Below, piece by piece: positions 2,419 to 41,945 of a DNA stretch of 64,000 nucleotides (position 1 is its first letter; each line of letters begins with the position of its first letter). The translations under genes and the position numbers were made by a program. The DNA comes from a virus: IMG/VR virus record IMGVR_UViG_3300027779_003464, positions 1 through 64,000 of that record, one strand, 5' to 3'. The notes under the pieces are model-generated. The model was not told the origin of the DNA and ran no database searches. It saw only the letters and a list, made by a program, of their open reading frames with translations.

Positions 2419-3453
2419 ATGAAGACTGCCCTAACTTATGATGATATTCAGTTAATACCTAGTTATTCAAATGTTAAAACAAGAACAGAAGTAGATCTTT
2501 CTTGTAAAATATCTAAAAATTATTCTATTAAGATCCCGATTGTTGCATCTCCAATGGATACAGTATGTGGATATGAAATGGCGGCTAAGCTATATGAATT
2601 AGGAGGAGTAGGATGCATTCATAGATTTAATACAATAGAAGAACAATCAAGAATAGTTACCAAGTTAGCAGAAAATATAGATATTAATAAATATACTAAA
2701 TGGAAAAAGACTGTAAATTTACCAATAATGATTGCCATCGGCGTTCAAGAAGAAGATAAAGGTAGGGCAAAAGAGTGTATTAACAAAGGAGCAAATGTAA
2801 TAATTATTGATGTAGCTCATGGCGATCATGAAAATGTCATATCTATGATTAAATGGTGCAAACATAATTTACCAAGTAATGTGGATATTATTGCGGGAAA
2901 TATTGCGACCGCTGAGGCAGCAGTTAATCTACAAGAAGCAGGGGCAGACGGGTTAAGAGTAGGAATTGGAGGAGGATCCTTATGCACGACAAGAATTAAA
3001 ACAGGATTTGGAGTTCCAAACGTAACCTGTCTAGAAGAAATATTAGAAGTTGCTGAAGTTCCAATTATGGCAGACGGAGGTATTAGAACATCTGGAGATA
3101 TATCAAAAGCATTAGCGGTTGGGGCAGATTGTGTAATGATCGGCTCCCTTATTGCAGGAACTTTAGAATCCCCAGGTAAATTACAGGAAAAAGGTAATGG
3201 CCTATATAAAAGATATAGAGGTTCCGCTTCTTTAGAAACAAAAACAACCCACGGCCAAACTGAGAGAAATATAGAAGGAGAATCTACAATCATTCCATTT
3301 AAAGGAGGCGTTAAATATATTATAAAGGGCTTAACTGACGGTTTACGATCTGCGTGTTCATATGCCGGAGCAAATAGTCTATCTGAATTTCACCCAAAAT
3401 ACATTAGAGTAACAAATGCTGGATTAACAGAAGGAAAGCCTCATTTGTTATAA
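2419..3453 (+). CDS. guaB: IMP dehydrogenase without CBS domains
   Basis: This TIM-barrel enzyme of the IMPDH/GMP reductase family is expected to oxidise IMP to XMP with NAD in guanine nucleotide synthesis. Visible signatures are PIVASPMDTV near the N-terminus, the catalytic cysteine loop GIGGGSLCTT (Cys about residue 188), PIMADGGIRTSGD, and the flap KRYRG, which carries the Arg-Tyr pair typical of IMPDH rather than GMP reductase. The C-terminal IRVTNAG also fits IMPDH, while RSACSYAGA is closer to GMP reductase. At 344 residues it lacks the regulatory CBS insert of cellular IMPDH. It is followed 8 nt later by the cysteine synthase gene. Confidence 0.85.
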   Translation: MKTALTYDDIQLIPSYSNVKTRTEVDLSCKISKNYSIKIPIVASPMDTVCGYEMAAKLYELGGVGCIHRFNTIEEQSRIVTKLAENIDINKYTKWKKTVNLPIMIAIGVQEEDKGRAKECINKGANVIIIDVAHGDHENVISMIKWCKHNLPSNVDIIAGNIATAEAAVNLQEAGADGLRVGIGGGSLCTTRIKTGFGVPNVTCLEEILEVAEVPIMADGGIRTSGDISKALAVGADCVMIGSLIAGTLESPGKLQEKGNGLYKRYRGSASLETKTTHGQTERNIEGESTIIPFKGGVKYIIKGLTDGLRSACSYAGANSLSEFHPKYIRVTNAGLTEGKPHLL

Positions 3454-37267: not shown

Positions 37268-38929
37268 TTATGCAATTGCAGCAGAACCCGTAAGAACGTC
37301 TGTTCCACCAACAATGTTCATCATACAGTATTGCGTTTCTGGATGCCATCCTGCTTCAGTAATCGCGTATCTTGATTTCATACCGATTTTTGGAGAGAAT
37401 GTACCTTCAGCAATAGTCTGTAATGACTCAGCCATTATATAAGGCATAAACTTAACACCTGGCTCTTCATCAGCTCCTTTTCTACCGATACAAATTCTTT
37501 CATCACCGAACGATAAGTTAGGATCAACATAAACTTGTACACCGTAGACTTTACCAGCTGGGTAAAGATTACCTGCAACTCCAGCCATATCAGTTGGTAC
37601 ACTCGCAATTGAGTAACCAGCAACATCAGCCATCGCAGAAGCAACTTTACCATTAGTAACCATAAATGTTCCAGCTCCGAATCTACCTCTATGGTAAATC
37701 AAGTTAGCTAGTTCAAGAACTTTAGTTACTAATCTTCTTTGCAAAGTAGAAACGTTTTCGAAACCAACACCACCAGTAGTTAGGTTAAGTGTTGCGACGT
37801 TAGCGCCCTCAACAGCTGCAACTTCAGTAGCGTGAACAGCACCTAAATTAAAGATGTTGTCTACTAACCTCTTGTTGATTGATTGAGCTAAATCGTTAAC
37901 TGCAACGTTTTCTAACATAGAAACAACGTCATAGTTCCAAACTCTATTCAAGTCTTGGATTTGCTCAACAGTAGCTGAGATAGCAACTTGGTCAGTTTCA
38001 GCCTCGATGAATTTAGTGAACATTCTAAGACCCATGTTTCTGAATCTAGAAGACTCACTAGCCTCTCTTGACATTGAACCTGCAACATTACCAGTTCCAG
38101 GTAAATAAGGACCAGAGAAATTACCAGCCGGAGCTTGGTCATAATCTGCATCACTTACTCCTGAGAAACCAGAAATGTGGTTTTCAAGTGCTGAGACGAG
38201 CTGAACCATAGCTGCAGTAGTAGCAACCGGTACGGTTACGTTAGCTGCACCTCCAACACCGTCCAGAGTAGCACCTGCCGCAATATCTGCAGCAACTGTA
38301 TCTGTACCGGTAGGGCCAGTCATCACTTTAAGGATAGCGTGACCGTCCACACGTGAGAATCCTACAAGATCATAAGTACCAGTAACTGCTGCTGAGAATG
38401 TTACATTTGACCCTGGAGTCAAAGTACCACCTGCAAGACCAGCTTCTGTTATGCCTTGTAATTTTATCATGTACGGTTCAGTCTCATTATCTGTTTTACC
38501 ACCTGTATATAGGTAGTCTAAATATGGAAGAAATCCTACTGGAGAATCCATAGGTACAACTGGAACTAGGTCGAAACCAATAGTTTTAGCTGCCACCTGA
38601 ATCGCAACCGGTAAAAGTGATGGAAATTTATCACCTGAACCAGTACCTGCGCTAGTATAAGAACCTTTTGCACCAGCTGCAAACGGAGTATCCGTTGCTG
38701 GAACACCAGCTCCCATTCCAGGAACTGCAGGGGGCGTCTGTAGAAATTGACCTGGTCCTGTGTATTGCTCAAATAACGGAGCGCTATTATCAAAAATAGC
38801 GTGGTTATGTGCATACTCAGCTAACCATGGTGTCTTTTCCATGTCTGCGCCGTGAGATTCTAAAATAGGCTTCCACGTTTTGTTCAAACTGTTATCATTT
38901 GAACGTTTAAAAATTTTTGTACGTGCCAT
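37268..38929 (-). CDS. 23: Major capsid protein (T4 gp23-like)
   Basis: This 553-residue shell protein has T4 gp23 features: GFDLVPVVPMDSPVGFLPYLDYLYTGG near residue 120-145, REASESSRFRNMGLRMFTKFIEAETDQVAISATVEQIQDL-type core (only part quoted here in spirit: FRNMGLRMFTKFIEAETD), and FSPKIGMKSRYAITEAGW near the end. Likely prohead protease sites [LI]-x-E occur at PILE (residue 24) and PWLAE (residue 38), so a short propeptide is probably removed. Its G+C content looks higher than its surroundings, as expected for a heavily expressed gene. It follows the protease-scaffold gene by 24 nt on the minus strand. Confidence 0.9.
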   Translation of the reverse strand: MARTKIFKRSNDNSLNKTWKPILESHGADMEKTPWLAEYAHNHAIFDNSAPLFEQYTGPGQFLQTPPAVPGMGAGVPATDTPFAAGAKGSYTSAGTGSGDKFPSLLPVAIQVAAKTIGFDLVPVVPMDSPVGFLPYLDYLYTGGKTDNETEPYMIKLQGITEAGLAGGTLTPGSNVTFSAAVTGTYDLVGFSRVDGHAILKVMTGPTGTDTVAADIAAGATLDGVGGAANVTVPVATTAAMVQLVSALENHISGFSGVSDADYDQAPAGNFSGPYLPGTGNVAGSMSREASESSRFRNMGLRMFTKFIEAETDQVAISATVEQIQDLNRVWNYDVVSMLENVAVNDLAQSINKRLVDNIFNLGAVHATEVAAVEGANVATLNLTTGGVGFENVSTLQRRLVTKVLELANLIYHRGRFGAGTFMVTNGKVASAMADVAGYSIASVPTDMAGVAGNLYPAGKVYGVQVYVDPNLSFGDERICIGRKGADEEPGVKFMPYIMAESLQTIAEGTFSPKIGMKSRYAITEAGWHPETQYCMMNIVGGTDVLTGSAAIA

Positions 38930-38953: not shown

Positions 38954-40939
38954 TTACTTTCGATAGTCTGCTTCTCTAAGCATTCTGTCTAGGTAGTTTG
39001 AGGTATAACCTCTTGCATTCTCAACTACCCTTTCAATGGGCATCATACCTTCTGTACTTTGGCTTTCGTTAAGATTTTGCAATTTCTTATTATTTTTTCC
39101 TTGTTCAATTCTTTCTACTATTCCGTTTAAGTTTTGCTCATCCCAAAATGTTTTAACTTGGTATGGAGTATTTAAAGTATATAATTGAGATTTAGAATAG
39201 ATGTGATTTTTCTCTGATTCATCCATTTTACTCCAAGTATTCTTATACTCATCTGGCATAAACTTAATCATTACAGGAATATCTTTAGTAGTTTCAGTAT
39301 ATACTGATTCCATTATAGAAATAACATCAGTTTCGTTAAACCAAACTGAAGCTCCTAGTGTTTCAACAATTGATTGTTTAATTCCTTTATCTAGTGCGTA
39401 AAATTTATCTTTATTAGCATCGCCTAATACCTTTAAGAAAGGATATTTTGCTTCTAATACTGCTTTAGAAGAATCTGAAGTAACCTCAGCAATAACTTCA
39501 TCAACTTTTTCAACTAAGCTATCGATAGTTGCACTTTCATTTAATTTAGCAACACTTCCTAATACATTTCTTTTTGTCGGAACAGCAGCTCCTTCGTTAA
39601 GTTGCTCTGCTATATATTCAGCATATCCTATTCCTTGAGCGGATTTTTCTCCAATGTATTGAGAGTATTGTCTATTAGCGTTAACGTTCTCTGCTAAATA
39701 ATTAGCAAATTCATTAGTATTATTAGATCCTTCAGCAACATATTCAGTATATTGAATTCCCTTATCAACTTCTTCAGCTAAATAGTTTTGATAATTAATA
39801 GAGTTATTTAAATTCTCTTTAATATATTCAGTATAATTAATAGTTTCATTTAATTTTTCAGCTACATGATCTTGATGGCCGATGCTAGTATCTAACTTTT
39901 CTCCTAAATAAGAACTATAATCAATAGCCTTATTTGTAGTTTCAGCAACGTGCTCTGTATAGTTAACTGATTTGTTAACCATTTCTTGCAAATAATCAGA
40001 GTAATTAATTACTCCTTCTAGATGCTCAGCTAAATAATTAACAAAGTTAACCAATTTAGGCATATCTACCGTTGAATTACTTTGATCTGATTCAAATGTA
40101 GCTTTCTGATTTTTTAATTCGCCTTTAATAGCGTTAATCTGATCCTTAACTAAGTTAGAATACTTATTCATTGACTCAGAGGTTACAAATTTGTTATTAT
40201 CACCCATCGTTTTTCTATTTTTTTGAGGTTCGATAGAATCTTCAAAAACCGATTCTATAGTATTATTTATTCTATAGATTTTGAAATTATTAGAATATTC
40301 TAAGCTCTCAGAAATTTCTTCTAATCCATTTTGCTTAACAAAGGAATTACTCTTTAAAGAGTCATAACTTTCAGTCAACATTTTAAAATCATTTTGTAAA
40401 GATTCATTAGTTACTTTATTCAAAATAGCTTCAGTAAAACCAGGTTCACCTACTAAATCATAAGTAAATATTCTTTGAAGTTTAACTTTTCCTTCATTCA
40501 TAACTTGACCGGCTGCTCTAGATGAAATGGATAAGTTTACTCCTCCGTTTAATAAAGCTTTCGCGATTTTACCATTGGGTGTATCCTCTAATATTCTTAA
40601 TTTTATATTAACCTTAGTGTCTCCGTCATACTCTAGTTCTTCAATGATATGAGAAGCACTTTTTAATGTAACGTCAAAGTGAGGTGGATGATCTAAATCT
40701 CCAACTAATTGTCGCTTTTCTATCTTTTCTTTTAAGTAAGTTAAGTGAGGTAGATATTCGTCTTTTTCGTAGACTCGATTATTATTATTCTTCGATCCAA
40801 ATACAGCGCAAACCCCTTCTAATATTGTGTTATTAGGTTGATTAGATTTTACACTTAAATCTTCTCCTACGTTTTCAACGATTAATACGTAATCCTCATT
40901 CTTTTTTAAATTACCAGCATTTACTGAACGTGTATTCAA
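38954..40939 (-). CDS. 21: Prohead protease fused to a repeat scaffold (gp21-gp22-like)
   Basis: Residues 1-200 match the T4 gp21 prohead protease: GDLDHPPHF with the catalytic His (84) and NLSISSRAAGQV with the catalytic Ser (about 140). Residues 245-661 are a helical scaffold, including eleven 14-residue repeats (297-450) and a Thr/Glu-rich C-terminal domain. T4 encodes protease and scaffold separately, so this is a fusion. An ATG at 40207 (MGDNNKF) could give the 417-residue scaffold alone. The only start in frame after a late-type motif is TTG at 40939; the 10-nt spacing from motif to TTG matches other genes and supports it. Capsid gene 23 follows 24 nt downstream. Confidence 0.85.
   Translation of the reverse strand: MNTRSVNAGNLKKNEDYVLIVENVGEDLSVKSNQPNNTILEGVCAVFGSKNNNNRVYEKDEYLPHLTYLKEKIEKRQLVGDLDHPPHFDVTLKSASHIIEELEYDGDTKVNIKLRILEDTPNGKIAKALLNGGVNLSISSRAAGQVMNEGKVKLQRIFTYDLVGEPGFTEAILNKVTNESLQNDFKMLTESYDSLKSNSFVKQNGLEEISESLEYSNNFKIYRINNTIESVFEDSIEPQKNRKTMGDNNKFVTSESMNKYSNLVKDQINAIKGELKNQKATFESDQSNSTVDMPKLVNFVNYLAEHLEGVINYSDYLQEMVNKSVNYTEHVAETTNKAIDYSSYLGEKLDTSIGHQDHVAEKLNETINYTEYIKENLNNSINYQNYLAEEVDKGIQYTEYVAEGSNNTNEFANYLAENVNANRQYSQYIGEKSAQGIGYAEYIAEQLNEGAAVPTKRNVLGSVAKLNESATIDSLVEKVDEVIAEVTSDSSKAVLEAKYPFLKVLGDANKDKFYALDKGIKQSIVETLGASVWFNETDVISIMESVYTETTKDIPVMIKFMPDEYKNTWSKMDESEKNHIYSKSQLYTLNTPYQVKTFWDEQNLNGIVERIEQGKNNKKLQNLNESQSTEGMMPIERVVENARGYTSNYLDRMLREADYRK
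39590..40051 (-). repeat. Eleven tandem 14-residue repeats in the scaffold domain
   Basis: The units are exactly 42 nt each with no gaps. Examples are INYTEYIKENLNNS, IDYSSYLGEKLDTS and IGYAEYIAEQLNEG. The consensus is [IV]-x-Y-x-x-[YH]-[LIV]-x-E-x-[LV]-[ND]-x-x, that is, two heptads suiting a coiled coil. Most units contain [LIV]-x-E, close to the T4 prohead protease cleavage signal. DNA copies have diverged, so the pattern is kept at the protein level. Confidence 0.92.
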
Positions 40940-40949
40940 AAGTCTATAA

Positions 40950-40965
40950 TTTTTTTATTATTTAT
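40950..40965 (-). promoter_or_regulatory. T4-late-like promoter motif before the protease-scaffold gene
   Basis: Read on the minus strand it is ATAAATAATAAAAAAA, ending 10 nt before the TTG start at 40939. It supports that start and late expression of the head genes. Confidence 0.5.
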
Positions 40966-40991
40966 ATTAGACTTGTTAAAAAAAAATGAAA

Positions 40992-41945
40992 TTATTTATT
41001 ATAATATGACATTAAGTGATTCTTAAGCTGCTTTAAATTCGATTTGCTTAACTTAGATAAATCGGGAGACTCTATATCGAAGGTGACAATGTACTTTCCA
41101 AGTTCTCCATCCTTTGATTTTATTCCTTCTCCTGGAATGTTAAAGCTTAATCCGTTAATTAGCTCAGGTGAATTTATTTCAGCATTGTATGACTTATTAA
41201 ATATAGTATCAACTAATATCCCCTCTTCTTTAAATATGACTTTATATAGCGGAATCTTTACATTATGTATAATATTTCCACAGTCAATTGATATATCATC
41301 AGGAACATTTATATCTATTTTTATATTTAAGTTCCCACATAGGTGCTCAATCTCACTTTGTCCCCATACATTTAATCTAGATATAATATCCTCATTTCCC
41401 ATCCCGTCAATTTTAAGACTTAGCTGAAAACCTGAATCCGTTTCTACTAGATTCATATACTTTTTCCTTAAATTAATCTTTACAATGATATTTTTATCTT
41501 CCCTTTCTTTACTGTTTATCTCTTTTGAAATATATCTCTCAAAGGATACTTCAATATTTGCTCCTTTGGCTAACTCTGTAAATTCCGCGCTAACTCTCAT
41601 AGATATATCCAAATACTCACTTTGTCTTCTTCTAGATTTAGTATATGATTTTTCAAAGGGAGCATCCTTAAATGATGAATTTGAAAAATCATTAACCCAA
41701 TCATCAAAATTCATTCCTCCTCCTCCTCGGGTTCTTCTTCTAGGCTGAGGTGTGTCATATTGCTGTCGCTTCTTTGGATCTCCTAAAATAGAGTAAGCTT
41801 CAGCTATTTCCTTAAATTTAGCCTCTGCGTCCGACGAATTATTTTTATCTGGATGGTATTTTAAAGCAAGCTGCCTATACGCCTTCTTTATGTCAGATTC
41901 TGGCGCATTTTTTGGCACTCCTAATATTTTATAATAATCTGTCAT
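40992..41945 (-). CDS. DnaJ-type co-chaperone (J-domain protein, no zinc finger)
   Basis: Residues 1-68 are a J domain ([21 protein letters not shown], then the essential HPD in LKYHPDKNN) that would stimulate host DnaK. A Gly/Arg-rich linker ([14 protein letters not shown]) follows. The C-terminal 210 residues look like a substrate-binding beta-sandwich of CbpA/type II J proteins, but are diverged. No CxxCxGxG zinc repeats occur. The 317-residue protein starts 61 nt from a divergent glycan gene, with a palindrome in between. It probably helps head assembly together with the phage GroES. Confidence 0.88.

Follow-up and report, generated by a model that had tools for sequence, protein, structure and literature searches.

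A conserved array of 14-residue units bearing candidate cleavage sites in a probable nested protease-scaffold gene of T4-related phages

The window analysed here is a stretch of 64,000 nucleotides, positions 1 to 64,000 of the IMG/VR virus record IMGVR_UViG_3300027779_003464. On one strand of it a head maturation protease is continued, in the same frame, by a long repetitive tail, and the gene lies between a chaperone-like gene and the major capsid gene. The genes and protein regions are the following:

37268..38929, minus strand: major capsid protein gene of the gp23 family, next to the fusion gene
38954..40939, minus strand: protease-scaffold fusion gene, one open frame of 661 amino acids with a TTG start
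40992..41945, minus strand: gene of a J-domain (DnaJ-like) protein, directly upstream of the fusion gene
40415..40894, minus strand: domain of the gp21 (S77) protease type, spanning roughly residues 16-175 and seen in Pfam, PHROG, Foldseek, AlphaFold and alignments
39590..40051, minus strand: array of eleven units of 14 residues each (residues 297-450), in which unit positions 7-9 read [LIV]-x-E; a helix is predicted at low confidence
38957..39472, minus strand: helical region at the C-terminus (residues 490-661), with a core that AlphaFold models at pLDDT of about 75-90

The fusion family is a large group of uncultured T4-related phages; protein searches returned relatives from huge uncultured phages of 462-735 kb and from IMG/VR. 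A relative of the J-domain gene is found 40-145 nt upstream of the fusion gene in 44 of the 72 loci with at least 1.1 kb of upstream sequence, and it is conceivable that the J-domain protein serves as a phage co-chaperone in folding or disassembly of the scaffold.

At its N-terminus the protein carries a serine protease of the gp21 type, as the earlier note on this DNA had proposed. The window protein scores 40.5 bits against the Pfam S77 profile PF03420 (cut-off 27), and residues 19-378 match the head maturation protease profile phrog_207 at E 3e-32. T4 gp21 (5jbl) is the top Foldseek match, with E values of 7.5e-8 to 1.6e-7 and a target TM-score of 0.66-0.70; herpesvirus proteases follow at ranks 4-13 and are far weaker (E 2e-3 to 4e-2). 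H84, S139, S140, and D161, which we take to be the His/Ser/Asp catalytic residues, are invariant in alignments of 10 and of 28 sequences.

Downstream of the protease domain, the eleven units of 14 residues (42 nt) follow each other contiguously, in agreement with the earlier description of an uninterrupted array. The autocorrelation at lag 14 amounts to 242 BLOSUM units over the array and to -92 +/- 26 in shuffled sequences (maximum 20, n=10,000), and lags of 14, 28, and 42 are prominent along the whole tail of the protein. Unit position 9 is Glu in 11/11 units and position 7 is Leu, Val, or Ile (five, three, and three units, respectively), so that [LIV]-x-E, originally noticed in most units, is found in all of them; positions 3 and 6 are Tyr, Phe, or His in 11/11. 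Since the DNA copies have diverged and Tandem Repeats Finder reported no array at 39590-40051, the repeat is one of the protein level and not the product of recent slippage. A second copy of the array was not detected at E 0.001 in the whole 118.6 kb record.

An array of 6-15 units is present in 70/70 complete proteins of the family, close and distant, the window protein included, which makes 819 units in total with the rough consensus I-x-Y-S-E-Y-[LIV]-A-E-N-L-D-K-x. The search for gp21 homologues with the repeat in other phages, which the earlier note had called for, has thus turned up the array throughout the scanned proteins, and the array is old and conserved. Loss of the repeats in close relatives, named in the note as a refutation, was accordingly not observed. 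The scanned sample comprised 79 distinct family tails minus the two Prevotella Lak phage proteins L015 and L016 and minus seven proteins cut by contig ends (L048, L050, L051, L072, L081, L092, and L094); L017 and L018 never fitted the catalytic pattern that was used. In the scan, two motif columns were masked and a cluster was closed at gaps of more than 28 residues, longer interruptions being invisible to it. The relatives are the best 80 of at least 543 confirmed ones, ordered by similarity to the window protein, and hence distant members are under-sampled; as the sequences are related, the counts are not independent. With the repeat region alone as query, 6 of 50,697 phage records were matched, all of them from uncultured huge phages. 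No units were found by the scan in L015 (read in part only) or L016. Both were translated with the standard bacterial code, whereas an alternative code has been described for Lak phages. By eye, the fused protein of Tenacibaculum phage PTm1 is free of YxxY[LIV]AE units.

Successive units are 14 residues apart, and 14/70 proteins have one interruption with a spacing of 21 or 28 residues, the latter of which may conceal a degenerate unit. These interruptions add 7 or 14 residues and therefore keep the heptad phase of a helix. Could the array be a low-complexity expansion devoid of function? The variation in unit number and the near-identical units of some relatives (L010, L079) would fit such an origin; however, exactly eleven units are present in 38/70 proteins, most units of these proteins carry their own position-specific signature, the DNA copies are diverged, and the gaps are heptad-phased. 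A functionless expansion is thus considered highly improbable.

The window phage probably infects a member of the Bacteroidota. Its A-rich gene starts, its kin among Tenacibaculum and Prevotella phages, and the ribosomal protein S21 genes in 7/18 relatives' records (loci L106-L108 and the records of L035, L053, L059, and L010) fit this assignment; in the window's own record no S21 gene was found. A group of bS21-encoding phages with prohead protease and capsid genes has been assigned to Bacteroidota (PMC9723584), and the fusion family might, at a guess, overlap with it.

The question of whether each unit is a protease site is best approached from the composition of unit position 9, which is Glu in 732/819 units and Asp in 0/819. 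The acidic positions 5 and 12, which also lie on the polar face of the helix, mix Glu, Asp, and Asn. Asp should be acceptable in a surface salt bridge but not to a Glu-specific protease, and position 9 thus behaves in a Glu-specific manner. According to published work, cleavage by T4 gp21 follows L/I-x-E, and several fragments arise from gp22 (PMC9026906). The closeness of the unit motif to this signal, as pointed out in the earlier note, holds with regard to Glu and less well with regard to P3, which is Val in 165/819 units, deviating from the published T4 rule. The capsid protein of the same lineage offers a comparison, since it contains a candidate processing site of its own:

38768-38770, minus strand: candidate pro-site PLFE|Q at Glu54 of the gp23-family capsid protein

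A candidate [LIVM]-x-E pro-site is found in 70/70 distinct capsid proteins, with Leu at P3 in 43, Ile in 15, Met in 7, and Val in 5; here, within a set, unaligned stretch, the earliest match to [LIVM]-[NFYHE]-E was counted, Glu being required, and no sequence failed. Among the six 'MFE' cases are proteins in which another candidate follows immediately. Occurrence of Val at P3 in both array and capsid pro-site suggests that proteases of this lineage accept Val.

Many sites per scaffold are common in phages of the T4 type. T4 gp22 contains 16 [LI]xE motifs versus 5.8 expected, and enrichment was found by a shuffle test in 6/8 separate T4-type scaffolds; the numbers for Pelagibacter phage Mosig (9 versus 6.0) and the annotated scaffold of phage PAU (4 versus 2.5) are not significant. 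The fused PTm1 tail has 20 versus 7.7, and the Lak tail is marginal with 10 versus 5.8. The reversed-motif control is not significant in 7/8 scaffolds and in the PTm1 tail. For the array itself this shuffle enrichment was discarded as proof, because the reversed motif is also enriched (p<0.05) in 6/8 repeat-bearing tails.

Several observations would fit an array of purely structural meaning, in which Glu9 would serve packing or salt bridges, the protease would cut at the ends only, and the rod would leave the head whole. Position 9 ranks only sixth of the 14 in conservation (KL 2.23 bits), the aromatic positions 3 and 6 being the most conserved columns (3.55 and 3.57). Glu is absent from position 9 in 87/819 units, and unit 2 is devoid of it in 29/38 eleven-unit proteins; both figures, like Val at P3, speak against the cut at every 14 residues that the earlier note had suggested. 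Furthermore, interruptions keep the heptad phase, and candidate [LI]xE sites are also present outside the array in the window protein. Proteases, moreover, cut a regular helix poorly as long as it is not unfolded. Against the structural reading stand the strict preference for Glu over Asp at position 9, unlike at positions 5 and 12, and the fact that T4-type scaffolds without this repeat, such as T4 gp22 and the PTm1 tail, are likewise dense in [LI]xE. It is, on the whole, rather unlikely that the array has a structural role only. Less likely still would be cutting at a few units, with larger fragments that remain in the mature head, be it as internal peptides or as ejected ones. For this scenario there is a precedent in T4, which keeps gp22* in the head (PMC9026906), and the diverged units of the eleven-unit proteins, with their position-specific signatures, look as if they had roles of their own, but it would be hard to explain why regular eleven-unit chains keep Glu in at least eight units. 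A helical rod with candidate sites in its pieces is the best reading of the array, and, judged from the sequences, complete cutting into 14-mers would be the likely outcome. The interpretation in the earlier note is therefore plausible and now better supported.

Structure prediction is in line with such a rod. AlphaFold models the protease at a pLDDT of about 80 and two long helices, residues 293-370 and 379-448, at about 45; the overall pTM is low (0.29 and 0.38). Of the previously suggested two-heptad coiled-coil rod, helicity is borne out by the predicted helices and by gaps of +7 or +14, while at a pLDDT of about 45 the models are compatible with a coiled coil and do not go beyond that. 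The C-terminal helical domain probably holds the capsid protein and would represent the candidate capsid-binding end; a comparison with predicted viral structures yielded two matches for it with E of at most 0.001. By eye, the region at 38957-39472 (minus strand) apparently contains two similar helical modules of about 45 residues each, both of which seem to be kept, without an array, in the Lak protein L016. A likeness to T4 gp22 in a C-terminal 'ES-x-K' motif, seen by eye, was dropped as a sign of scaffold homology, as profile comparison did not support it: against a profile of seven gp22 proteins, the hhalign probability was 0.1%. The scaffold role of the non-protease part, by inference an internal scaffold, consequently relies on its position between protease and gp23 gene, its helicity, and its density in [LI]xE sites, the test of which is not specific for periodic tails.

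A protein in which protease and scaffold are fused would supply the two in a ratio of 1:1, and a scaffold-only product from a nested start would solve this stoichiometry problem. The features at issue are:

40205..40207, minus strand: internal ATG, Met245, proposed start of a 417-residue scaffold-only product (residues 245-661), pointed to by conservation, leader, and synonymous constraint
40261..40270, minus strand: inner ATAAATAATA, proposed promoter of the scaffold-only transcript, inside the peak of synonymous constraint
40956..40965, minus strand: outer ATAAATAATA, similar to T4 late promoters, upstream of the full-length start
40940..40974, minus strand: inverted repeat directly adjoining the TTG start, with arms at 40968-40974 and 40940-40946 and the promoter-like motif between them

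The internal ATG is kept in 77/77 distinct relatives examined (67 by script and 10 by eye, L015-L018 left out). In the 67 it precedes a conserved V-T (mostly F/Y-V-T) at a distance of 3-6 residues, or 16 in three of them, the Met being constant though the distance varies. In the alignment a Met lies within two columns of Met245 in 67/70 proteins, and the sole equally constant Met is Met561 (69/70). The A content of the 24 nt before the internal ATG is 61%; the corresponding values are 38% for other Met codons and 53% for 42 gene starts of the window. Within this leader, A is found at position -14 in 67 of the 67 sequences, at -11 in 63, at -12 in 58, at -3 in 50, and at -6 in 46. These positions are close to those reported as important for initiation in Flavobacterium, starts in Bacteroidetes favouring A at -14 to -11, -6, and -3 (PMC6847099). 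The second residue is A, S, T, or G in 41/67. By start-context score the internal ATG ranks first among in-frame ATGs in 36/67 relatives and among the top three in 62/67; in the window, Met245 (3.00) is no better than Met572 (3.04).

In the clade of the window phage, ATAAATAA begins 45-75 nt upstream of the internal ATG. The inner motif is present in 46/76 classified relatives, namely in this clade and its nearest kin. Outer and inner ATAAATAA tend to go together: of 77 relatives, 42 have both, 29 neither, and 5 are discordant (one on a cut contig), while the one remaining unclassified relative shows both motifs in a separate listing. In the window, 5/11 copies of ATAAATAATA are situated 12-28 nt before an ORF start versus 0.25 expected, and the complete record of 118.6 kb contains 16 copies of it versus 3 of the backward pattern. 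The control AT-rich motif ATAATTAATA is also found near window starts (2/5 versus 0.11 expected). Two looser definitions were rejected, as TATAAATA alone is under-represented in the window (11 versus 25.6 expected) and TATAAATAATA with at most one mismatch is near chance (27 versus 22.4); it is, thus, the exact ATAAATAATA together with its placement before gene starts that carries the signal. Such placement, 12-28 nt before a gene start, recurs at window positions 3450, 7158, 17657 (minus strand), 55169, and others. ATAAATAATA would therefore represent a probable late promoter of the window phage.

Synonymous constraint within the open reading frame peaks at the scored columns I224-V252 (I224, N225, Q239-N241, F251, and V252) with a value of 0.366 (n=37), practically tied with a second peak of 0.362 at residues 623-630. 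The columns of the first peak encode the inner motif, the leader, and the surroundings of the internal start. The second peak is located at 39023-39091 (minus strand; residues 617-639) in the vicinity of LNESQSTEG, some 140 nt upstream of the capsid gene, and near the corresponding place ATAAATAAT is found in the relatives L055 and L063. Taken as a whole, the sequence comparisons suggest that the fusion gene is probably nested, a feature that the earlier note had not mentioned, with a scaffold-only product starting from the internal Met245.

Control of the full-length start may involve the inverted repeat. In 16/18 aligned upstream regions the TTG follows the right arm and the motif lies in the loop. 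The arms covary moderately: 16 cells are changed on both sides versus 7.3 in shuffles (0/500 as high), and covariation is 0.269 versus 0.161 in shuffled data, with one slid version reaching 0.237; in these 18 regions, a selection by hand in which the 44 motif-bearing loci predominate, pair types are not more numerous than in shuffles. Averaged over all 44 loci, the stem comprises 6.3 pairs versus 5.2 +/- 0.2 with partners permuted, and the relatives L055 and L057 have no convincing stem. Hairpins of this kind are known from the T4 genes e, soc, 49, and I-TevI, and late transcripts of gene e, starting inside the hairpin and thus without its 5' arm, are translated (PMC3014915). The hairpin around the outer ATAAATAATA resembles this late-promoter-in-hairpin control, and by analogy with gene e the full-length TTG start may be subject to a late-only switch.

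Summarizing, the following scenario is proposed for head assembly. Two products would be made from one frame, that is, the full-length protease-scaffold protein from the TTG start and a more abundant scaffold-only protein from Met245, the latter having its own leader and, in the window clade, presumably its own late-type promoter. The scaffold would consist of 14-residue units forming a long, amphipathic helical rod, at whose end the helical domain would hold the capsid protein. After closure of the shell, the targets of the protease would be the enzyme itself, the pro-peptide of the capsid protein, and the rod. With [LIV]-x-E, mostly as [LIV]-A-E, in nearly every unit, the rod would be reduced to peptides of about 14 residues and, by estimate, roughly 1.6 kDa, which would exit before the DNA enters; predicted 14-residue products of the window rod include MVNKSVNYTEHVAE and NLNNSINYQNYLAE. 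That the locus is a maturation protease-scaffold gene with two products, in which nearly every unit is a cutting site and the rod is digested to about 14-mers, is the account we regard as moderately probable. If it is true, the periodicity of the rod would itself provide for removal of the scaffold. Scaffolds, often disordered and lost on maturation, are difficult to observe; with candidate sites in an exact repeat, clearance of the closed shell by the protease becomes testable by mass spectrometry. The unit number of 6-15, in turn, provides a natural series that may be compared with head size, including that of the 735 kb phage.

In comparison with known systems, the fusion of protease and scaffold is not in itself unusual, as it is also found in P2 gpO, herpesvirus UL26, and PTm1. 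With T4 gp21 and gp22 the phage gene shares the protease fold and its conserved residues, the order protease-scaffold-gp23, and a scaffold rich in L/I-x-E. It differs in that T4 keeps protease and scaffold apart, as the earlier note had it, genes 21 and 22 being separate annotated coding sequences in the T4 record, and in that gp22 and the fusion protein have no detectable profile similarity. The fused gene of Tenacibaculum phage PTm1 likewise lies beside a gp23-type capsid gene and has a tail rich in [LI]xE, but, by eye, its repeats are others and there is no Met near the place corresponding to the internal start. The different repeat in this tail (L017, 5094-6788), dense in [LI]xE, is possibly convergent. 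In the Prevotella Lak phage (L016), protease and a long C-terminal region are joined in one frame, but neither L015 nor L016 has yielded any units. UniProt entry A0A6J5PWK8 of an uncultured Caudovirales phage, a protein of 657 amino acids under the name T4 prohead protease, shares 57% identity in the C-terminal region and is probably a close family member, its name being silent on scaffold and repeat.

Outside the T4 lineage, P2 gpO combines protease and scaffold in one gene (PMC7552001). Like lambda C/Nu3, it belongs to another lineage than the phages considered here. In lambda C/Nu3 the scaffold start is nested; we know of no periodic array of sites in either system. The closest parallel is offered by herpesviruses, where the scaffold gene UL26.5 starts inside the protease-scaffold gene UL26 (PMC12474303). 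The phage protein would resemble UL26 in its N-terminal protease, probably of a distantly related fold, fused to what would be a scaffold, but the internal start of the phage is a prediction from sequence. The cleavage specificity of UL26 differs from the one presumed for the phage protease, and UL26.5 has a separate internal promoter; to our knowledge, no such repeat rod exists in UL26. In the literature, of which subscription journals were thinly covered, and among the matches listed, such an array or nesting is not named for any T4-type phage. The novelty is the periodicity of the candidate sites. The chances appear evenly balanced that a herpesvirus-like nested gene is combined here with a rod of tunable length and pre-set sites, cut to uniform 14-residue peptides. 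Nested promoter and start, if true, would provide a case of the herpesvirus arrangement within the T4 lineage and bear on its origin; the larger point would probably be the combination of the site array with a probable nested gene.
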